A stretch of 35,951 nt of DNA from Bacillota bacterium (GTDB lineage Bacteria; Bacillota; UBA4882; UBA8346), in contig JAAYHS010000031.1 in NCBI GenBank assembly GCA_012735315.1, positions 1 through 35,951 on the forward strand, given 5' to 3'. A program made the position numbers and the translations under genes. This document shows, piece after piece, positions 1 through 28,151 of the stretch. The notes below the pieces were generated by a model. The model saw only the letters and a program-made list of their open reading frames with translations, was not told where the DNA came from and made no database searches. Position 1 is the stretch's first letter, and the number at the start of each line of letters is the position of its first letter.

Positions 1-1101
1 CCCTTGAAAAGCGTAACGGTGCTCCCAGCGATGGAGCAACAGCCCCGGTAGCCGCCGCAAGCCCAAATCCCGGCAAGAGCGATAGACACTGGCGTCCACC
101 GCGGCGCAAACACTCTTTAACGGCGAGTCCCGTTCCATCCCTTCCAAGGGATCGAGCTTGGTAATCACCATAATCCATCCCTTGTTCTCCCCTTTCAAAG
201 CCTCGTATATCCTTAATTCGGCCTCTCCATAACCTCTAGCGGTGTCGATCGAATTCAAACCGGAGCCGATCGCCCTTCGAATAATTTCGACCGCGGCCTC
301 AACGGTCGGCTTCCCGTAACGGTTGGCAATACCGTACTCCATCCCTAGTTGAGCGGTTCCTAACGTCAACTCGGAATATTCGAACCCGCCCTTTTTCCGT
401 CGGGGCAACCGGAATGCCGAACCGTCCTCTAAAGCGGCTAATCCGGCGCATAAATCTACCCATGAGGCTTTAATCGGGTCCCTAACATTATCAAAAACCT
501 TTACCACCTTTAAATAATCTTCCAAGGTATCCATGGTGCATCGGAAACCGCTATAATCCCGGTCTAAGCGCTGCGTTTTGAAAACAGCCGAACCGTACTT
601 CGCTCTAATCCAAGGCGTCACATGCTCCCGATCATAAGGTTGAGCCGTTTCCCGGCAAGCCTCCCGCAAAACGTCCACCGTGAAAACCTCGGCCGACAAA
701 CCGTACGGCAACCGGTGATCATTGGGGCCCAAGTACTTCAATCGCTTGGCGAGCAAAAAATCGACCATTTCCCGGACCAAAAGGCCGTCCGGGAATAAAT
801 TATCCGCGGTCATCCTGACCACCAGCGATCCCGGCTCCAAATCTGCGGTCGCCGCTTGAAAACGGCCCAGCACATCATCGAGCGGCCCACGGTAACAGAC
901 GATTCCCGCCCCGGAAAGAGCTTCAGCGATTAAATCATCCGAAGCATCAACCGAAGTGGCCACCACCGTCTCGATCCCGGTATTGGCCGCTCGTAAAGCG
1001 CATAATACAACCGCCGGCATTCCCGCTACCGGCAACAATGCCTTAGCCGGCAACCGTGACGAAGTCAATCTACTTTGAATTACGATCCGCACTTTAGGCA
1101 T
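1..1101 (-). CDS. Cytidylyltransferase (SpsF/PseF-like) fused to aldo/keto reductase, partial at left edge
   Basis: The 367 codons inside the window are all open and no stop is reached, so the C-terminus lies outside. The N-terminal half is a nucleotidyltransferase of the SpsF/CMP-nonulosonate synthetase type; it opens with IQSRLTSSRLPAKALLPVAG, the usual nucleotide-binding signature. From about residue 240 a second domain begins with LGTAQLGMEYGIANRYGKP, an aldo/keto reductase start. It shows the catalytic tetrad in order: Asp and Tyr in SIDTARGYGEAE, Lys in VITKL, His in LLLHRW. The first domain probably activates a nonulosonic acid as its CMP-sugar for flagellin glycosylation. The reductase substrate is unknown. 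The gene follows pseC by 129 bp on the same strand. The start is the ATG at 1101, preceded by an AAGG-rich stretch. Domain calls are firm; substrates are inferred from pseB and pseC next door. Confidence 0.85.
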   Translation of the reverse strand, partial: MPKVRIVIQSRLTSSRLPAKALLPVAGMPAVVLCALRAANTGIETVVATSVDASDDLIAEALSGAGIVCYRGPLDDVLGRFQAATADLEPGSLVVRMTADNLFPDGLLVREMVDFLLAKRLKYLGPNDHRLPYGLSAEVFTVDVLREACRETAQPYDREHVTPWIRAKYGSAVFKTQRLDRDYSGFRCTMDTLEDYLKVVKVFDNVRDPIKASWVDLCAGLAALEDGSAFRLPRRKKGGFEYSELTLGTAQLGMEYGIANRYGKPTVEAAVEIIRRAIGSGLNSIDTARGYGEAELRIYEALKGENKGWIMVITKLDPLEGMERDSPLKSVCAAVDASVYRSCRDLGLRRLPGLLLHRWEHRYAFQG

Positions 1102-1230: not shown

Positions 1231-2391
1231 TTAGACCAATATTTCTCTCAGCTTATCGATCACATAATCCTGTTCCGCATCACTCAAGCCATAATACATC
1301 GGCAAACTGATCGCTTCCCGATAATACCGCTCCGCTTCCGGAAAATCTCCCTGCTTAAATCCGAGCCTTTGATAATATGGTTGGGTATGTACGGGGATAT
1401 AATGCAGATTAACCATGATTCCCGCTTGGCGCAACTCTTCAAAAACCTGACGGTGGGTCTTATTTAGCTGATCGAGTTGCAACCGGATCACATACAAATG
1501 AAAAGCCGATTTACAATCGGGATGCTCCCAAGGAGTTATTACCGGTAAATCAGCCAGGAATCTCCGATACCTTTCCGCCAGATAACGGCGTCTTTCAATA
1601 AATTCATTAATGCGCTGCAATTGACTGTATCCTAAAGCCGCTTGAATATCGGTCATTCGGTAATTATAACCCAAGTCAATTTGTTGATAATACCATGGGC
1701 CGTCCGGGCTTTTCTCCATCAAATCCGGGTCCCGGGTGATCCCGTGGCTCCTTAACAAAAGCAACTTCCGGTATAAATCTTCCCGGTTGGTCAGGACCAT
1801 TCCTCCTTCACCGGTGGTGATAATTTTAACCGGATGAAAGCTGAAAACGGCCATCGCCGAATAAAGGCAGGAACCTACCGGCATGTCTCGATACAAACCG
1901 CCGATGGCGTGAGAAGCGTCTTCAATAATTTCAAAATTATAATCCGCCGCCAACTCGGCGATCCGTTCCATTTCACAAGACTGCCCGGCAAAATGAACCG
2001 GTATGACCACTTTCGGTAGTCTGCCGGCCCCTTCGGCGGCTTCCAATTTTCTTTCCAATTCCGCGGGCGACATATTGAAAGTTCTGGGGTTAATATCGAC
2101 AAAATCGACTTTACTCCCGCAATATAACCCGCAATTAGCCGAAGCTACAAAAGTATTGGGAGAGGTCCAAAGATAATCGCCTTGCTTTAAGCCGGCCGCC
2201 AGACAAGCGAGATGTAAAGCAGCCGTAGCGCTACTCACCGCTACGGCAAACTTGGCGCCGGTAAATTCCGCGACCGCCTTTTCAAATCTTTCGATCGTCG
2301 GCCCTTGGGTCAACCAATCGGATTGTAATATTTTGATTACCGATTCGATATCCGTTTGATTAACATTTTGCCTCGCATAGGGGATCTTCAT
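1231..2391 (-). CDS. pseC: UDP-4-amino-4,6-dideoxy-N-acetyl-beta-L-altrosamine transaminase (PseC-like)
   Basis: This 386-aa PLP enzyme belongs to the DegT/DnrJ/EryC1/StrS aminotransferases. PseC puts the 4-amino group on the keto sugar made by PseB, the second step of pseudaminic acid synthesis. Visible landmarks are SSATAALH near residue 53, EDASHA at 157-162 (the Asp that contacts the PLP ring nitrogen), and FSFHPVKIITTGEGG at 183-197, with Lys189 as the expected PLP lysine. The length is normal for the family. The ATG overlaps the pseB stop in an ATGA, so the two are translationally coupled. A perosamine- or bacillosamine-type transaminase is the main alternative, but the PseB neighbour and the SFHPVK motif favour PseC. 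Confidence 0.9.
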   Translation of the reverse strand: MKIPYARQNVNQTDIESVIKILQSDWLTQGPTIERFEKAVAEFTGAKFAVAVSSATAALHLACLAAGLKQGDYLWTSPNTFVASANCGLYCGSKVDFVDINPRTFNMSPAELERKLEAAEGAGRLPKVVIPVHFAGQSCEMERIAELAADYNFEIIEDASHAIGGLYRDMPVGSCLYSAMAVFSFHPVKIITTGEGGMVLTNREDLYRKLLLLRSHGITRDPDLMEKSPDGPWYYQQIDLGYNYRMTDIQAALGYSQLQRINEFIERRRYLAERYRRFLADLPVITPWEHPDCKSAFHLYVIRLQLDQLNKTHRQVFEELRQAGIMVNLHYIPVHTQPYYQRLGFKQGDFPEAERYYREAISLPMYYGLSDAEQDYVIDKLREILV

Positions 2392-3383
2392 ATAGTTTGG
2401 TTCATCTCCCGAATTTCCTCCACAGTCAAAAAGTGAGGATTGTTCCCCGAATTATACTCAAATCCCGGTTTTACGGGTGCTCCTTTTTCACCGAGGGGGT
2501 TAATTTGATAGTCCACTTTCACCACAAAATTAATGGTGGGTTTGATTACAAAATGGTCGGCGAACTCCAATGTCAAATGGCTGCCGTCCGCCGGGCACAA
2601 CACCTCATGCAGTTTCTCTCCCGGCCGAATTCCGACGATCTTGAACGGCATTCCCGGCTGCAACGACTCAACCAAGTCGGTAATCCGGATCGAAGGTATT
2701 TTAGGAACGAACACTTCGCCGCCTTGACACCGTTCCATGCACTTGAGAGCGAAATCGACTCCCTGTTGAATCGTCAACCAATATCTGGTCATCCGGGTGT
2801 CGGTCACGGGGAGTTCTTTGGCTCCTTCGGCGATTAACTTCCTAAAAAGCGGTAACACCGAGCCGCGCGAACCGGCTACGTTTCCGTACCGGACCACTGC
2901 GAACCGTGTCCGGTGGCCGCCGGCGATATTGTTGGCGGCTACAAACAATTTCTCCGCCACCAGCTTAGTCGCGCCGTACAGATTTACGGGACTGACCGCT
3001 TTATCCGTGGAGATGGCGATTACCTTAGTCACTTCATTTTGAAGCGCGGCTTTGATTACATTCTCCGAACCGTTGATGTTGGTTTTAATAAACTCCATCG
3101 GATTATATTCCGCCGCCGGCACTTGTTTTAAAGCAGCGGCGTGAAACACATAATCCACTCCTTGCATGGCTTGGACCAACCGATTTTCATCCCGGATATC
3201 CCCTAAAAAATATCGCATTGCCGGGTGATTATATTCCCCTTGCTGCATTTCATACTGTTTCAACTCGTCTCTGGAAAAAACAATCAACCGTTTCGGTTTA
3301 TACCGGCTTAAAATCGTTTTAATGCATTGTTTCCCGAAAGAACCGGTTCCCCCGGTAATCAAAATCGACTTATTATCAAACAT
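2388..3383 (-). CDS. pseB: UDP-N-acetylglucosamine 4,6-dehydratase, inverting (PseB/FlaA1-like)
   Basis: This 331-aa short-chain dehydrogenase catalyses the first step of pseudaminic acid synthesis: 4,6-dehydration of UDP-GlcNAc with C5 inversion. GGTGSFG at 11-17 binds NADP, and the sequence around it is characteristic of PseB. The catalytic group STDK (Asp127, Lys128) precedes Tyr136-xxx-Lys140, matching the Asp/Lys/Tyr set known for FlaA1. The reading frame stays open to 3470, but those extra 29 codons come from the repeat array upstream. I chose the ATG at 3383 because it sits behind a GGGGGGAG ribosome site and starts exactly at the family's conserved N-terminus. The gene is separated from the Maf fusion by a 311-bp repeat-filled gap. 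Confidence 0.92.
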   Translation of the reverse strand: MFDNKSILITGGTGSFGKQCIKTILSRYKPKRLIVFSRDELKQYEMQQGEYNHPAMRYFLGDIRDENRLVQAMQGVDYVFHAAALKQVPAAEYNPMEFIKTNINGSENVIKAALQNEVTKVIAISTDKAVSPVNLYGATKLVAEKLFVAANNIAGGHRTRFAVVRYGNVAGSRGSVLPLFRKLIAEGAKELPVTDTRMTRYWLTIQQGVDFALKCMERCQGGEVFVPKIPSIRITDLVESLQPGMPFKIVGIRPGEKLHEVLCPADGSHLTLEFADHFVIKPTINFVVKVDYQINPLGEKGAPVKPGFEYNSGNNPHFLTVEEIREMNQTI

Positions 3384-3405
3384 CCGATCATACTCCCCCC
3401 TTTTA

Positions 3406-3694
3406 AAAGTATGTCGTAAATTTGAGCCTATCGTTCCGCGTTCAATGCTTGTTCCGCGTTTCGAGTTCAACGTTCCGCGTTTTTATCTAAAGTATGTCAT
3501 AAAGGTAGGGCCTATCGTTCCACTTTCCGCGTTTTTTACCGCTTAGTCGATGAAGCCAACTCGACATCGACTTGTCTTGGACCGCTTCCACATTCTTTTC
3601 CTCGTTCCATCGGAATGCACCCGAAACGCAGAACTCGTAACCCGAATGTTTAACTCGGAACGCGGAACGAGAAACCCGGAACCCGGAACTAAAT
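3406..3694. repeat. Intergenic inverted-arm array of GTTCCGCG/GTTCCGGG-type words
   Basis: This is most of a 311-bp gap without a gene, between the Maf-fusion stop codon and pseB. The left arm (about 3406-3535) has repeated TTCCGCG words on the plus strand. It contains a direct duplication: AAAGTATGTC followed by GCCTATCGTTCC occurs at 3406 and again at 3489. The right arm (about 3600-3690) has the same kind of words (GTTCCGGG, GTTCCGCG, GTTCCGAG) on the minus strand, so the two arms are inverted. The array begins within a few bases of the upstream stop codon. Open frames across it are low-complexity shadows. Confidence 0.75.
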
Positions 3695-6600
3695 TTACCC
3701 CATTTCCCGGTATGCGTTGAGAATCTCCTTTGCCACCCGTTCAATTCCGAAATTCTCCAAAACATGTTCTCGTAAACGTTCGGCCTTTTCGATTCTTTCA
3801 GCTTCGTGACTCAGATAAAATTGTACTTTAGCCAGCAATTCTTCCCGGTTTTGATAAATCTCCAATAAACCGTTGAAAGGTTCCAATACTCTTTCGCCGA
3901 CGGTCCGGACCAAACTCCCGTTAACAAGGAAGAATCCTCCCATGGCGATACCGTTAATCAGGTCCGGTTGCAGATAGGAGTTGTTATTCCACATTAAACT
4001 CGGGTAAAGATTGATTTTGCTTTGCAAGACCGTGTTTTGATACTCCTTGCCGAAGGATTCAAGAGGAGGCTCACGGTAGCCTTTTAAGCTCAGATCCTGC
4101 TCCCAACCGGCGCCATATAGTTTGATGTCGAATTTCGGCTCACTATTGACCAGCCATTTAACTTGGACGGAGGTCAGCAATGAATCTTCCAGTTGACGCC
4201 GGAAAAGCCCGGCTATTAATCGCAGAATTTCCGGTTCTAAAGCCCGATCCTTCTTTTGAAATTCTTCCCGGATTACATTTTGATAAAATTCATCATCGGG
4301 CGTTAATGACCCTTGCTTGAGCAACCCGGTCATCAGTTTAAAAACGACCGCGCGGCAAATACTAATTATCGCTTCTCCGCTCAAATTTCTACCGCCTGCT
4401 AGGATCCCCATAACAGCCGCGGCTAACGTTTGGAGGATTTTTTCTTGATCTTTTAAATCCTTAATGACCGAAATCCGGTTTTCTTTTATCAGGTTGGCCC
4501 TTTCAGCAGTGGACATCGGTAAATACGGTAAAGGGACGGATTTGATCTGTTCCGGAAGAAAACCCCGTTCCTTAAGACCGGAATTAACTGAAGATGCGCC
4601 GCTGATTAAGACTTTTTCCAGCGGATGGCTCGCGGTAATATTTGGAACTATCCAACGATCAATTATTTTCCAGCTTATAAAGGGAATAGAGAGGTTTTTA
4701 TAGGCCTCCAACTCTTCCGCCGTAGCGAACAGGTGAACCGCCAAATCCGGTCTGAAACTTTCCAGCCTGCGAAGATCATCATATTTATTAAAGTTATAAA
4801 AAGGAGGACTTTCATAAGCCATTTCGGCTTCAAAACCATTTTCCTTGAAATGTAATCGCAATGCTTCTCCATACCGGAACAAATATTCCTCCGCGCAACT
4901 GGCAACGATTAAGATTCTCTCTGCATGCTCCGGCTTAGTCCGGTCATAGTATTTTTGAAGATTAGCGAGCCTTTCTTGGAAGGAGTTTTCTTTGACAGTC
5001 TTTACCTTCTCTAATAATCCCTTGATCTCCCCAACATCGGTTCCGTATAACACATTCGGAAGGGGGACCTCATCTTTTTGAAAGAATTCTTCCAACTTAT
5101 CATTTTTAACGCCGATTAAAAAATGTATGTTTCGAAACTCCGCCAATTGGTTAAAATCGAATTTCTGCATCATTAATCGCCAATTATCAAGTTGGTGTTC
5201 GATAATAAATACCGGTAAATTTTTTAATGATTGCCGTATTTCGAACGGCGACTCTCGATAAATACGATTTAGATGATGATAGATGCCTGCGTCGTCCGTA
5301 TTATAGATTAAAACCGTATCATTGACGGAGAACTCGAAAGCGGTAGAAGGAGACTCGTTTACCGCCAATAAAAACCGTTTGGAACGGCTATCGTAAACAT
5401 ATTCCACATTGAGAAAATTGCAGGTTTTTAAAGGAACTTCCTCATAATCTCCGAAGTTGATTCCTTGTTTCTCGAAGAATTCTTTATTAAGTCGATAGCG
5501 CCGTTCAAAGTCGGATTCCTTTAATTCCTTCAATAGTTGGTTTAATCTCTTTTGAAGCCGCTTCCGGATTGTAAATCGGCCGTTTATGTCATTGATCTCA
5601 ACTTTGACTTCCGAATCCAATTGTAATCGATGCAAACATTCGATCCGGAGATATGCGTAAAAACAATTCCTCCCGGTTATGGATGCGAAATCAACGATAT
5701 AATTGTTGGCCGCCACATAATTCATAGCGCGATAGGCGTTTTTTACAAGCATCCTCCGGCAAAAATCCGGTTTATAATTCAACCGGAGACAGTTTTCCAA
5801 AGACGATTGGACTTTTGAAAAATTTTGCAACTTCCGGTAACATCGGTATAACAAAAAACCGATCTCGGGATTCTGTTGATCCTCTCGTTGCGCTTCTTCC
5901 AATACCTGGATAGCTTCAGTAACATCATTTCTCTTGTATAAAACCAAACCATATAAAAACCGGAATTCATTTAAGTCTTTTCGTTCACCCCCGCGGACCA
6001 CAGGTTTTAGATAGGCTTGGATTTCAGTTAAGTTTCCGCCGTTATTAATCCAATCTCTAATCTGAACCGGGGTTTTTGTATTGGCGATTTGAATTAACGA
6101 GGGCGTCTCTTTTTCAGTTTCGTTCGTTCCGTTGACGGGAGAATTCGATAAATGTTTGAAAACATAATCCAAATACTTTTTAGTTTCACCGATAATGTTA
6201 CTCCAATGTTGAAGTTTCCCGTCAAAACCTTCCTTAGTCCTCACTTTCCCCAAGTTGGCGATGGCGATCTGATTCGGAGCTATCTTCCAATCTTGGAGAT
6301 CTTTTAAAAACAACCGCCATTCTTTAGTAGTAATAAACGCTCCATACTCATCGGCTATATCTTTCAAAGCCGAATCAATTTTGTCTTGAAACGCTCCTTC
6401 GGTTTGATTCAAATGTCTTAATCCTTGGACCCGATCCCATAGTAAATCCATCTTTAAGACTCCCTGCCGGGACATGGTTCTTATTTGTCCAATAATATTT
6501 TCACTCCCGGCATGACCTCTCCTTATCGTTTTTAAACCCAAATCGTATAGTTCATCAATCTTCCGGCTGATTCCCCGCTCTTTACGGCAATACTCATCAA

Positions 6601-7957
6601 TGAGATCGGCTAGTTTATGATTGGGGACGCCTTTGATGGGCTGACCCCCTTCGGTGGCGTTGAAAATCTTTTTATCCCGGTAATATTCGGAAACCATCAA
6701 TTCAAACAAAACTCTAAAGCTGTCCAGTTGTTTATCGGTGACAATATCCTGACCGTAAATATCTTTGGTAATAAAACAATTGGGCGGTAATTTGTTCCGA
6801 TCAATGACTTTTTGATACAGACTTTCGGCGTAACGCTTGTCGCCGGTATAGGCCAAATCCTGCCCAATCAAGATTACCGGGGAACAGCCAAATTTTATGG
6901 CCAAGTCCACGGAAGGATGGGCCACGGAAAACCCGCTCCTAACCGTGCCGAACTCATAATTTCCGAGTTTTAGCGAAAGAAAATCCGAAAAGGTTTCCGT
7001 ATCCAGTTTCATATAAACTTTTTTACCGCCGAAATAAGAAAGAGCCGCGTCATTAAAGCGGTAATTGTAAATAAGGCAGATATCGTCCAAATCCAAATTG
7101 GCATAGATTTTTTTATTATAATCGGTGCCGTCAAAAGCCACTAAAAAATGGGGCGATACCCCAAACTTCCGCATCGCCCGGATGCTGGTCCCGGCGCAAA
7201 TGATTACCGCTTTATCCTTAATATCATTCAGTAGGTGGATGTTTTTCTCCAAAGAGGGACCCGCCGAAACAATTATCGCCGGGATCCCGTTAAATTGATT
7301 GAAAAAATGCTTGACTCCGGGTGAATTGATAATGGTCGGCAAGTTCTTGATCGCGTTTGACACCCATTTTTCGCCAAAATGATTGGCAGTGGCCAGATTA
7401 GCGCGGTTAATTCGTACCGACTCGCGCAATATATTTTGAAAAGCCCCAATTTCATCGGGGAAAATATCCTGATAAGGCGGAAGTACTACCAAGTCCGAAT
7501 CAAGAATCAAATACATTAAATATTGACTGACCAAGCCGGCGCACTCACCATAATTGTTGCCGGCAAGCAATAAATAATCGCCTTTTATCTCACTTAAATC
7601 AACTTCATGAAGACAAGCTTTCAAGATCGCCGGCGATGGTTCATAACAAACCACTCTTTGATAGCAACCCAATCTCAAAACGGCTTTCAAATGATATAAA
7701 AATCCGCCCCCACAAAAAATCAGCGCGCTTTTATCTCCGGCGTGTCGTTCAACCCAACGTTCGGCTTCCAACTCCGGATCATAAGCGCTATTCAAATAAA
7801 CCTTTCGCTGATCCTTGATTATCCGGGCGACCGGCAAACCATTCCGGCTGCTGTTGATTTCCAGAGTTATTCCATTACTATCCGGTTTCCCTTTTAACTC
7901 TTTTAAGAGATGTGGGTATTTTGCCTTAATATAATTTAAATTTTTTTCGTAAATCAC
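3695..7957 (-). CDS. Maf-type flagellin nonulosonate transferase fused to TPR and CgeB-like glycosyltransferase parts
   Basis: This very large protein (1420 aa) has a Maf/DUF115 (MptE-like) domain at about residues 200-400, with PAIIVSAGPSLEKNI and later LIGQDLAY. Maf proteins move nonulosonic acids onto Ser/Thr of flagellin in the cytoplasm. Residues about 660-740 look like TPRs. The C-terminal part resembles CgeB/YkvP-type glycosyltransferases: a Rossmann-like start at ILIVASCAEEYLFRYGEAL near 1015, then a typical end from KLYGAGW through the SLMWNNNSYLQPD region to the last residues. Ordinary Maf proteins are much shorter (roughly 600-700 aa), so this is a fusion. The start is uncertain. 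A GTG at 7966 lies inside the ribosome site; the GTG at 7957 has AGGTGA at good spacing, so I prefer it. It follows the 116-aa gene almost without a gap. Confidence 0.85.
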   Translation of the reverse strand: MIYEKNLNYIKAKYPHLLKELKGKPDSNGITLEINSSRNGLPVARIIKDQRKVYLNSAYDPELEAERWVERHAGDKSALIFCGGGFLYHLKAVLRLGCYQRVVCYEPSPAILKACLHEVDLSEIKGDYLLLAGNNYGECAGLVSQYLMYLILDSDLVVLPPYQDIFPDEIGAFQNILRESVRINRANLATANHFGEKWVSNAIKNLPTIINSPGVKHFFNQFNGIPAIIVSAGPSLEKNIHLLNDIKDKAVIICAGTSIRAMRKFGVSPHFLVAFDGTDYNKKIYANLDLDDICLIYNYRFNDAALSYFGGKKVYMKLDTETFSDFLSLKLGNYEFGTVRSGFSVAHPSVDLAIKFGCSPVILIGQDLAYTGDKRYAESLYQKVIDRNKLPPNCFITKDIYGQDIVTDKQLDSFRVLFELMVSEYYRDKKIFNATEGGQPIKGVPNHKLADLIDEYCRKERGISRKIDELYDLGLKTIRRGHAGSENIIGQIRTMSRQGVLKMDLLWDRVQGLRHLNQTEGAFQDKIDSALKDIADEYGAFITTKEWRLFLKDLQDWKIAPNQIAIANLGKVRTKEGFDGKLQHWSNIIGETKKYLDYVFKHLSNSPVNGTNETEKETPSLIQIANTKTPVQIRDWINNGGNLTEIQAYLKPVVRGGERKDLNEFRFLYGLVLYKRNDVTEAIQVLEEAQREDQQNPEIGFLLYRCYRKLQNFSKVQSSLENCLRLNYKPDFCRRMLVKNAYRAMNYVAANNYIVDFASITGRNCFYAYLRIECLHRLQLDSEVKVEINDINGRFTIRKRLQKRLNQLLKELKESDFERRYRLNKEFFEKQGINFGDYEEVPLKTCNFLNVEYVYDSRSKRFLLAVNESPSTAFEFSVNDTVLIYNTDDAGIYHHLNRIYRESPFEIRQSLKNLPVFIIEHQLDNWRLMMQKFDFNQLAEFRNIHFLIGVKNDKLEEFFQKDEVPLPNVLYGTDVGEIKGLLEKVKTVKENSFQERLANLQKYYDRTKPEHAERILIVASCAEEYLFRYGEALRLHFKENGFEAEMAYESPPFYNFNKYDDLRRLESFRPDLAVHLFATAEELEAYKNLSIPFISWKIIDRWIVPNITASHPLEKVLISGASSVNSGLKERGFLPEQIKSVPLPYLPMSTAERANLIKENRISVIKDLKDQEKILQTLAAAVMGILAGGRNLSGEAIISICRAVVFKLMTGLLKQGSLTPDDEFYQNVIREEFQKKDRALEPEILRLIAGLFRRQLEDSLLTSVQVKWLVNSEPKFDIKLYGAGWEQDLSLKGYREPPLESFGKEYQNTVLQSKINLYPSLMWNNNSYLQPDLINGIAMGGFFLVNGSLVRTVGERVLEPFNGLLEIYQNREELLAKVQFYLSHEAERIEKAERLREHVLENFGIERVAKEILNAYREMG

Positions 7958-7969
7958 TATAGTCACCTT

Positions 7970-8394: not shown

Positions 8395-8421
8395 TAATCG
8401 GCTTTTTACAATCGATCTTTA
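8395..8421 (-). promoter_or_regulatory. Sigma-28 (SigD/FliA) promoter of the flagellin-glycosylation operon
   Basis: On the minus strand TAAA (8421-8418) is followed by exactly 15 bases and GCCGATTA (8402-8395). The known sigma-28 consensus is TAAA-N15-GCCGATAA or GCCGATAT, so 11 of 12 positions agree with the closer form. It lies between the flagellin terminator and the 116-aa gene, giving a leader of about 65 nt. This makes the small gene, the Maf fusion and probably the genes beyond it late flagellar genes. Confidence 0.8.
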
Positions 8422-8457: not shown

Positions 8458-8483
8458 AAAAAAAATCCCTCCGTAAGGAGGGA
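8458..8483 (-). terminator. Rho-independent terminator after flagellin
   Basis: A perfect 7-bp stem (TCCCTCC, loop GTAA, GGAGGGA) at 8466-8483 is followed on the minus strand by eight T residues. It lies 29 bp beyond the flagellin stop and just before the sigma-28 promoter of the next operon, so it separates the two transcription units. Confidence 0.85.
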
Positions 8484-8511
8484 CTTAAATTGTAAGATTT
8501 GTACCGAAATC

Positions 8512-10118
8512 TTAACCCAAAAGCTGCAATACCGATTGCGGTTGAGTATTGGCTTGAGCCAACATCGCCGTACTGGCTTGGGTGAGAATCGAGAGCCTGG
8601 TGAATTCCATCATCTCCGCAGCCATGTCGACGTCTCTGATTCGGGACTCGGATGCGGTGATGTTCTCCGCGGCGACACCCAAGTTATTGATGGTGTGCTC
8701 TAAGCGGTTTTGCACGGCTCCAAGGTCGGACCGCAACGAAGACACCCGGCTGATCGCCTCGTCGATCTTGGTGATCGCCTGGCCAGCGCTGAAGGCGTCG
8801 ATGACAAGAATATTATGGACTCCGAGGGACTCTGAATCCATTCTGCCGATGGCCGCGCCCATGTTCTGGAGTTCGTTGGCGCCGATCTGGAAGACCTGAG
8901 TGTTGTCTGCCAAGTGGACCGAAGTTGTGTATCTACCAGTTGAGCCTGTTCCACTGAAGTAACCCGCATCGTTCCATTTTACCTCATAATCGGCGTCACT
9001 GGCGAATTTTACGTCTACATTTTGATGAATGATGCCGATAAGGTTGTTTCCTTGGACCGTATTGCTGGATATTACCGTACCGGCCTTTGAAACAAAAACT
9101 TTATAGGTGTTCTCGGTCGCTTTCTGATACTCGGTGAATCCAAAAGCGTTCAACAACTGTTCACTGGCGACAACAGTGATTTTACCATCTTTGCCGGCAA
9201 TCGCGGAACTCAACACGAAAGTTCCGGAAGTACCCAATGCTCCGCTACCGGCGGTTGTGTTGTATGTGGCCAAAGCTTGATTGCCGACACCGGTCGTACT
9301 GGACATACCCAAATCGGTAGCCATTGCCTGATTAAATTTGGCAGCCAATCCCGAAAGGGTGTCATTACCGAAGACGGTGAAGGAAACAGATTTACCGGTA
9401 CCGTCTATTAAGGTGATCTTCTGCGGATTGTCCAACAAGAACCGGCCATTGGCGTCATAGAAACGATCTACGTTGTACAATTTCGTGCCGGCGGAAGCCA
9501 CAATACCGGCCTGGGTCCCGGAAAGCACTCCGCCCAACGTGGTGGTTTTGAAGATGGTTGAAGTCTGGACTTGGGTCTTACCGGCACTCGTCAAATCAAT
9601 TTCTAACTTGTAAGTCCCGGCGGCGGAAACCGAACCATCCCGGATACCGCCTCTTAGATAAATCTTGGTGGCTTCTTATCGGAGGAACTGATGGCTGATG
9701 CGGTGCCGTCCAACAAATTCTTATTATTGAATGAGGTGGTATTGGCGATCCGGTCGATTTCGTCTTTGAGCTGTTCAATTTCCTTTTGGAGTTCGCTCCG
9801 ATCGTTGGCGGTATAGGTGGCGTTCGCCGCTTGGACCGCCAGTTCCCGCATCCGGTGCAAGATCGAATGGGTCTCGGTCAAGGCTCCCTCTGCGGTCTGC
9901 AGTAACGAGATGGCGTCCTGGGAGTTACGGGCTGCTTGATTCAAGCCCCGGATCTGGCTGCGCATGGTTTCCGAAATCGCAAGACCCGCGGCGTCGTCGG
10001 CGGCCCGGTTAATCCGGAGACCGGAAGACAGCTTCTCCATGGTCTTCCCATTCAGGTTGTTCACGATGCCCAAATTCCGATGGGCGTTCAGCGCTGATAA
10101 GTTGTGATTAATTCTCAT
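8512..10118 (-). pseudogene. Flagellin, complete in both ends but interrupted by a one-base frameshift
   Basis: This is the filament protein, exported through the flagellar type III system. The N-terminal D0/D1 part (from 10118) starts MRINHNLSALNAHRN and includes SSGLRINRAADDAAGLAISE. The C-terminal D1/D0 part ends ANTQPQSVLQLLG, the standard flagellin end. The first frame runs into a stop at 9654. The rest of the protein continues in another frame, which can be read upstream as ATKIYLRGGIRDGSV up to about 9672. Restoring one lost base near 9672-9680 (for example DKE instead of DKK) gives one protein of about 535 aa, with a roughly 250-aa variable middle. The ribosome site is AAGGAGGAG. A real loss-of-function mutation, an assembly error, or slippage-based variation are all possible. 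With intact glycosylation and chaperone genes around it, I favour sequence error or a very recent mutation. Confidence 0.85.
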
Positions 10119-16157: not shown

Positions 16158-16460
16158 CTACCTCCCGGTAAGTTCGTCCACCAGGCTCCGGCCAATCATT
16201 TTAGCGGCGATATCATTCCCGGATACCTGATAGTCCCCACTCGTAATTTTTTGCTTGAGTTCAAGGATCTTATCGGCACGAACCTCGGGAGACTTTAGCG
16301 CCTGTTCCTTGGCAAAGTTCAATTCTTGAGCGCGCCCGGATAAAACCAAGCTGTCGCTTTTCTCAATCGCCGCCGTTTCACGGTATGCGGCCTTTTTCTT
16401 AAGGGAATTAATCCGTTCCAAATGTAATATATTTTGAACTTGTTTATTGGAGATGATCAT
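16158..16460 (-). CDS. flgM: Anti-sigma-28 factor FlgM
   Basis: This 100-aa protein has a disordered, charged N-terminal half and the conserved sigma-28-binding C-terminal half VRADKILELKQKITSGDYQV followed by GNDIAAKMIGRSLVDEL. FlgM holds sigma-28 inactive until the hook-basal body is finished and FlgM is exported. The start is the ATG at 16460 with AGGTGAT in front. Its presence supports the sigma-28 promoters assigned downstream. Confidence 0.95.
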   Translation of the reverse strand: MIISNKQVQNILHLERINSLKKKAAYRETAAIEKSDSLVLSGRAQELNFAKEQALKSPEVRADKILELKQKITSGDYQVSGNDIAAKMIGRSLVDELTGR

Positions 16461-26909: not shown

Positions 26910-28151
26910 TTAATTCACTAATCGAGCATCAGACAGTAAACCAATGACACTTTTTAAATTTCCGACCACTCCCACAAAAACAGGGGTCATTTCTTCCGCA
27001 TGAAATATTCGGAATCTTACCCCCGGACGTCCTTGAGCAGCCAAAATCTCCCGAGCCAGCTCTTTAAAACGCGGCAAGGCGTGTTCAAAAAAATCCGCCA
27101 TCCTTCGCAAAGCCAACTTAACCGGGATGGTTCTTCCCCGCCGTAAAAGCGATTTTTCAAACAATCTCCCGAACAGTATAACAAATAAGGGCACTCATTG
27201 CAGCGACTGTTCCAACTCGCCTTTTGTATGCCGAAAGCCAGATACTTTTCCGATGCAAGCAACTGCTCCCAACCGTCTTCCATAATGTTGCCAACCTTCT
27301 TGTCCGCATCCACGAAGAAATCGCAAGGATAAACGTCCCCGTTATGCTCCACTACAAAGTATTGACTGCAATGCCCGCCCATATGGCAGAGATGATATTC
27401 TCCGGTGACCATTAAATTTAAAACAGCGTCGAATAAACGGATCGAAATCTTCCGGGTATCGGAGGCAATCCACTGATCAAAAATAGCGTTCAGAAACTCG
27501 CCCCATTGCCGTCCGGTAATTGAATAGGGCAATGCTTGTCCACTCCGGTCATACTCGACGTAAGGGATATATTGGTGATACTGAACTCCCAAGTCACAGA
27601 GATACTGATAAATTCTCCCGCCCATGATGAACATTGGCTGAATTAACCAAGATCAAAACATTAAAATCGACTTGATGGCGGCGGAGCCATTCAATTCCTT
27701 GTAATACCATTTCATGAGATCCTCCCCCGCCCTTCGCTTTTCGGAACCGGTCATGCAACTCCGCCGGTCCGTCCAGGCTGACTCCGACCAAAAAATGATA
27801 TTCGGCAAGGTGTGAAGCGAGTTCGTCAGTGATTAAGGTGGCGTTTGTTTGTAACCCGTTAGCCACCACCGCTCCTGGACGGCCGTATTTTTGTTGCAAT
27901 TCGGTAACCCGCCGAAAAAAAACGACTCCCATCAAGGTCGGCTCCCCGCCCTGCCAACCAAAGACGTATTGGGGCTGATCGGTCGCCATGTAACTAGCAA
28001 TCATACGGGTCAATACTTCATCCGGCATCCGATGGGTCGTAGTCTCCGGGTATAACTGACTCCGGCTTGAATAAAAGCAATAATCGCAGCGGAGGTTGCA
28101 ATCGGCGGAAGCGGGTTTGATTAGAAGCGAAAAACAACATTCAGTCGACAT
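26910..28151 (-). pseudogene. Radical SAM maturase of the anaerobic sulfatase-maturating (anSME/SPASM) type, two frameshifts
   Basis: The product would be about 413 aa. It has the radical SAM motif CNLRCDYC at residues 18-25, a GWQGGEPTLMG loop, and C-terminal SPASM-type cysteines (CHMGGHC, YPCDFF, then CNECPYLLYCSGDC). anSME enzymes turn a Cys or Ser of sulfatases into formylglycine. The frame shifts by one extra base near 27612-27617 (NVHHGRE to IYQYL). It shifts back by one missing base in a run of seven A at 27087-27093 (EGWRIF to FEHALPRFKEL). The two compensate, so 5' and 3' parts share a frame. Sequence errors or true decay are both possible. Its ATG overlaps the kinase stop (TAATG). 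No sulfatase is in the window, so its target is unknown; other SPASM targets are possible. Confidence 0.85.

Follow-up and report, generated by a model that had tools for sequence, protein, structure and literature searches.

Our analyses of a 35,951-nucleotide stretch of DNA from a Bacillota bacterium (assembly GCA_012735315.1, contig JAAYHS010000031.1; hereafter the window) revealed a gene that joins a Maf-type flagellin glycosyltransferase (GT) to a tetratricopeptide repeat (TPR) module and a second GT-type module on one chain. The gene occupies positions 3695..7966 of the minus strand as a single uninterrupted frame of 1423 codons, with a GTG start at 7966 and its stop at 3695, and the plus strand has stops throughout 3695-7957. 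A first-pass annotation of the window had reported a 1420-aa frame at 3695-7957; the single long frame stands, and its extent is corrected here to 7966-3695, 1423 aa, on the minus strand. Along the chain, a Maf half is followed by ~5 TPR hairpins, then by an alpha/beta domain in the middle and finally by a CgeB-type lobe, so that the annotated combination of Maf, TPR and CgeB-type sequences in one protein is confirmed by Pfam matches to PF01973 and PF13524 and by the TPR hairpins of an AlphaFold2 model. The protein may O-glycosylate flagellin through two modules of the transferase type, the C-terminal one, a GT-B module, adding a second sugar, a reading that in our judgement could fall either way.

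Conservation and Distribution of the Fusion

The same uninterrupted domain order was found in three further genomes from the uncultured Bacillota family to which the window belongs, designated G001, G006 and G003, whose proteins are 61, 38 and 37% identical, respectively, to that of the window. These full-length relatives (the basis, with the open frame, for defining the gene), together with a nonsynonymous substitution rate (dN) well below the synonymous rate (dS) where these were computable, establish that the fusion frame is not a chance one. In a further genome, G005, the two halves are separate frames of 631 and 810 aa with a 38-base overlap, an arrangement that could have preceded the fusion, could have arisen from it by a later split or could result from a frame error. 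In G008 the second half is present and is truncated where the contig ends. In a tree of 90 Maf rows, the Maf halves of the four fusions and that of G005 form one clade with 100% support, and the ordinary Mafs of G002 and G004, which belong to the same family, lie outside that clade.

A Maf domain was detected in 90 of 398 genomes of the phylum and, with the window and G001 excepted, the longest Maf frame among the matches listed for those genomes was 902 aa. A profile of the C-half found no full-length relative outside the window genus in the 398 genomes, a sample in which the family was sparsely represented, and a scan of 84,980 species, each by one genome, returned five loci, all in genomes of this same family. 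On these sequence comparisons the fusion is judged real and old, and restricted to one uncultured family.

The Maf Half and Its Companion Gene

The Maf half of the protein is intact. Its GT-A core (residues 204-375; 6842..7357, minus strand) matched PF01973 (flag10) with an E-value of 7.5e-47 and 159.7 bits, against a cut-off of 34.6, and PDB entry 5mu5 matched over residues 223-388. The SAGPSL and LIGQDLAY motifs, which the first-pass annotation had correctly assigned to Maf/DUF115, lie inside this core, and the full Maf signature tested (GPS, P, D, G-Q-x-L-A and N...G-x-x-I-x-G) is kept, the window copy having the conserved residue at each of the 33 columns in which ≥90% of 36 Mafs agree. 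Residues 1-200 (7367..7966, minus strand) gave no Pfam match in the window protein and were assigned as an N-terminal, Maf_flag10_N-type region by alignment of other Mafs, and residues 461-610 (6137..6586, minus strand) aligned with the C-terminal helical region of ordinary Mafs. Other kinds of extended Maf were also seen: Mafs of ~780–820 aa in other Bacillota have a C-terminal hydrolase domain of the haloacid dehalogenase (HAD) type, PF08282 (loci L070 4375-6846, L071 4623-7019 and L072 4033-6363), and an 881-aa Maf (L069 4412-7057) has no Pfam match in its last ~500 residues.

Directly upstream of the fusion gene is a 116-aa frame (8320-7970, minus strand), absent from the first-pass annotation, which stops 3 bases before the fusion start and is found at the same place in G001, G003, G005 and G006. 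A profile built from these five copies had 74 matches in the 398 genomes, 61 of which are no more than 3 kb from a Maf domain, and the co-occurrence of this family with Maf across genomes had an odds ratio of 83. In 40 Maf neighbourhoods the companion gene usually touches maf. PMC13317340 (citing Unay et al. 2024) describes GlfM as a factor that is encoded beside Maf-2 and forms a complex with flagellin, and the 116-aa gene, being likewise a small gene beside maf, is probably this Maf partner. A GlfM-like gene also lies between flagellin and FlaG/FliD-type genes in G007, a genome of the same family in which no Maf domain was found (L075 6746-7234).

The TPR Module and the CgeB-Type Half

Pfam TPR profiles matched residues 666-725 below their cut-offs. 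An AlphaFold2 model covering residues 630-1423, based on an alignment with six relatives, has ~5 TPR-like helical hairpins at residues 665-833 (5468..5974, minus strand) with a predicted local distance difference test score (pLDDT) of ~90, and Foldseek gave matches to TPR proteins. TPRs are therefore present between the two halves, as had been proposed, although over residues 665-833 and not 640-760. The next domain in the model is of the alpha/beta type (residues 846-975; 5042..5431, minus strand); the possibility that it is a second Maf N-terminal domain was dropped, as the likeness between the two is weak (hhalign P 0.0016).

The C-terminal lobe (residues 1274-1416; 3719..4147, minus strand) matched the Glyco_trans_1_2/CgeB-type family PF13524 with 39 bits, against a cut-off of 25, and this family scored above its cut-off in all six relatives (39–42 bits), which rules out an ordinary Maf-1 with a long TPR tail. 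The model places a Rossmann-like lobe from residue 1017, then a helical insertion and then the C-lobe. Residues 1017-1165 (4472..4918, minus strand) are a probable GT-B N-lobe, based on their alternation of strands and helices in the model and on their alignment to a DUF3880–Glyco_trans_1_2 protein of genome G156. A GT-B fold is thus plausible for the N-lobe, and the C-lobe is of low confidence in the model. The closest PDB folds to the modelled C-half were SPINDLY and OGT (E ~1e-6), both enzymes that combine TPRs with a GT-B domain, and a PDB sequence search with the C-half profile gave no match. The C-lobe profile aligned with the G156 protein with an hhalign E of 1.4e-12. That protein (L074 9754-11487), of 577 aa, has a Maf N-terminal region followed by DUF3880 and Glyco_trans_1_2, is without the Maf catalytic core and is encoded in a flagellar island with two Mafs; it is a domain-swapped candidate flagellin transferase.

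In its central stretch the C-lobe has been maintained as closely as the Maf core. Identities of its core to G001, G003 and G006 (79, 61 and 67%) are on a par with those of the Maf catalytic core (81, 56 and 59%), and a dN of 0.20 versus a dS of 1.74, the latter near saturation, demonstrates that it is under strong purifying selection. The most conserved part of the C-half is the stretch around an invariant QPDL motif (residues 1333-1336; 3959..3970, minus strand).

Genomic Setting

A frameshifted flagellin gene (8512..10118, minus strand), the likely substrate gene, lies upstream of the companion gene and was recognised from open frames and Pfam matches as an N-terminal frame at 10118-9654 and a C-terminal frame at 9594-8512; flagellins are uninterrupted in G003 (531 aa), G005 (805 aa) and G006 (554 aa). 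A hairpin scan found a terminator-like structure after this gene, with a 10-pair stem and a T run (8463..8486, minus strand), although such sites overall are no commoner than in shuffled sequences. A pattern scan located a sigma-28-type promoter, TAAA-N15-GCCGATTA (8395..8421, minus strand), between this hairpin and the glfM start; the strict pattern was expected 0.16 times in the window and was found twice. Elements with 11 or 12 of 12 positions precede glfM in G001, G003 and G006, and none does so in G005, giving a promoter in four of the five loci, in all of which the order flagellin–glfM–fusion is constant. Since the promoter sits after the flagellin hairpin, glfM and the fusion gene look like a sigma-28 unit of their own beside flagellin, which refines the sigma-28 operon of the first-pass annotation. 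A FliA-type promoter also precedes the flagellin-modification operon beside the Maf gene of Shewanella (PMC3765264). A scan for sigma-70-type promoters gave nothing informative.

Downstream of the fusion on the minus strand are pseB, encoding the inverting 4,6-dehydratase of uridine diphosphate N-acetylglucosamine (2388..3470; TIGR03589 above cut-off), pseC, encoding an aminotransferase (1231..2391; TIGR03588 above cut-off), and a PseF-like gene cut by the contig end, with cytidylyltransferase and aldo/keto reductase domains (1..1101; PF02348 and PF00248). The Maf half is therefore encoded where such an enzyme would be expected, with flagellin upstream and nonulosonic acid genes downstream. 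PseB was also above its NCBIfam cut-off in G001, and LegB was above its own in G003, G006 and G008; a LegC-type aminotransferase was slightly below cut-off in G006 and G008, and G008 also has NeuC and NeuB genes. The fusion is thus beside genes of the pseudaminic type in two genomes and of the legionaminic type in three and, because it travels with either nonulosonic acid, this pattern argues that the second head would need no one particular first sugar.

Three further features were seen in these loci. In G006 a 650-aa CgeB-type transferase fused to a methyltransferase is encoded shortly downstream of the fusion (L023 12135-14087). In the window, a 12 of 12 sigma-28 match inside the flgM frame (16270-16297) may be the actual promoter of flgM, the start codon then lying further on, and two overlapping frames at 27017-28151 look like one broken radical S-adenosylmethionine/SPASM gene, with the SPASM domain in the downstream frame.

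Proposed Function and Alternatives

Based on this organisation, we propose that the Maf half, with its co-encoded GlfM-like partner, would transfer a nonulosonic acid activated with cytidine monophosphate onto Ser/Thr residues of flagellin that is still in the cytoplasm and not yet exported, the sugar being of the pseudaminic type here and of the legionaminic type in some relatives. The TPR module would hold flagellin, as in FlmG and the Maf-1 type. The GT-B module at the C-terminus, its donor pocket altered, would attach another sugar to that flagellin, which could go straight onto further Ser/Thr residues, as with FlmG and OGT, or onto the sugar that Maf had placed. A truly two-headed enzyme of this kind, in which the Maf step and a TPR-guided GT-B step, with a donor pocket remodelled by Asp for Arg and a possibly unusual second sugar, occur in one binding event, is possible but less likely than not.

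Activity of the second head is favoured by the conservation of the central stretch of the C-lobe, by its dN relative to dS and by its profile match to the G156 protein. Several observations weigh against it. The near-universal Arg of an R-x-F segment, present in 28 of 29 aligned comparison PF13524 sequences, is replaced by Asp in all six fusion C-lobes, namely by the D of QPDL, and the fusion C-lobes lack the Asp that DUF3880-type relatives have in their SW-x-x-D motif. The pLDDT of the C-lobe is mostly 34–80, so the confident part of the model excludes the donor site of that lobe, and the matches to SPINDLY and OGT had template modelling scores (TM-scores) of ~0.16 and were partly TPR-driven; as a result of those scores, they support the order of modules and not the detailed fold. 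No second sugar-donor pathway was identified in the window. A home-made profile detected genes of the CgeB type in only 2 of the 40 Maf neighbourhoods, because of which gene-neighbour logic lends the reading little support; an origin by fusion of usually neighbouring genes is likewise unsupported outside the G005 split. Because of the Arg replacement the fusion C-lobe is better described as a homologous lobe than as a standard PF13524 member, and its donor pocket is, on the alignments, either altered or non-catalytic. The C-terminal CgeB-type glycosyltransferase of the first-pass annotation thus holds as a recognisable and strongly conserved lobe, and it is a putative transferase. We read the change as a remodelled ligand site, for which activity with a different donor is about an even call.

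The main rival explanation is that catalysis is confined to the Maf head and that the TPR and GT-B-like half is a pseudo-enzyme scaffold, binding flagellin or glycan so as to position the substrate or to sense the sugar already placed. Both the Arg to Asp change and the lost DUF3880 aspartate, which affect positions nearly constant in canonical relatives, favour such a scaffold, and TPR domains alone bind the acceptor in FlmG, according to PMC7591256, and in Maf-1, as cited in PMC13317340. However, the altered position is in an invariant N-x-S-x-x-QPDL-x-x-G-x-A-x-GGF stretch within the most conserved part of the C-half, which points to a ligand site that is still being used, and we regard the scaffold as possible but well short of probable. 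It is improbable that the C-half is an active transferase for another acceptor or purpose, such as another surface glycan, fused for co-regulation only: PF13524 enzymes are common and diverse, with at least one in each of the 41 genomes searched, but the position after flagellin and glfM is constant and the promoter recurs. An artificial join of neighbouring genes through assembly or sequencing error, which the paired frames of G005 and the frameshifted flagellin of the same assembly could suggest, is extremely improbable, as the uninterrupted fusions of three separately assembled genomes rule it out and leave only the G005 split as a potential error.

Relation to Known Systems and Significance

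Mafs with TPRs (Maf-1) and Mafs with GlfM (Maf-2) have already been described, as has the use of TPR repeats to pick out flagellin transferases in Clostridium (PMC13317340), and a bifunctional transferase-methyltransferase acting on the flagellin glycan has been proposed in C. difficile (PMC5207246). An E. coli laboratory strain producing CMP-sialic acid has served as the donor system for a Clostridium Maf (PMC11339370). The new element is the joining of a Maf to a second GT-type module; our literature searches brought up no fusion of a Maf with another transferase, which is weak evidence of absence. The fusion resembles known Maf enzymes in its full conserved signature, its GlfM-like neighbour, its flagellin/nonulosonic acid locus and a TPR module after Maf, as in Maf-1. 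In contrast to them, it combines a Maf-1-type TPR with a Maf-2-type partner gene and has ~580 more residues with a CgeB-type lobe, reaching ~1420 aa versus at most 902 aa for the other Mafs listed.

FlmG is described in PMC7591256 as combining a GT-B domain with TPRs that bind flagellin, and as needed for flagellin modification. Compared by description, the fusion shares with Caulobacter FlmG a TPR module that has a GT-B-type domain C-terminal to it, but FlmG is of 596 aa, lacks a Maf domain and comes from a host without Maf, so that the likeness, which concerns how the proteins would work, covers the C-half only and the fusion, with its Maf domain, falls outside the FlmG class. The CgeB family is approached through the C-lobe profile match and an aligned helical insertion between the lobes, and is departed from in the Asp for Arg, in DUF3880 not being detected and in the fusion to Maf and TPR. 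The protein O-glycosyltransferases OGT and SPINDLY share the module order and are the best fold matches of the C-half model, but the low TM-scores and ~11% identity give no sign that the arrangement as a whole goes back to a common ancestor.

Catalysis by a C-lobe with Asp where the family has Arg would, if it occurs, widen the known range of CgeB-type donor sites. The choice of which flagellin sites receive which sugars is poorly understood, and a Maf and TPR/GT-B fusion with its partner gene represents a compact system in which to test physical coupling in glycan order and site choice. As pathways of both the pseudaminic and the legionaminic type accompany the fusion, a comparison of relatives would show how far the second head relies on the sugar placed by the first.

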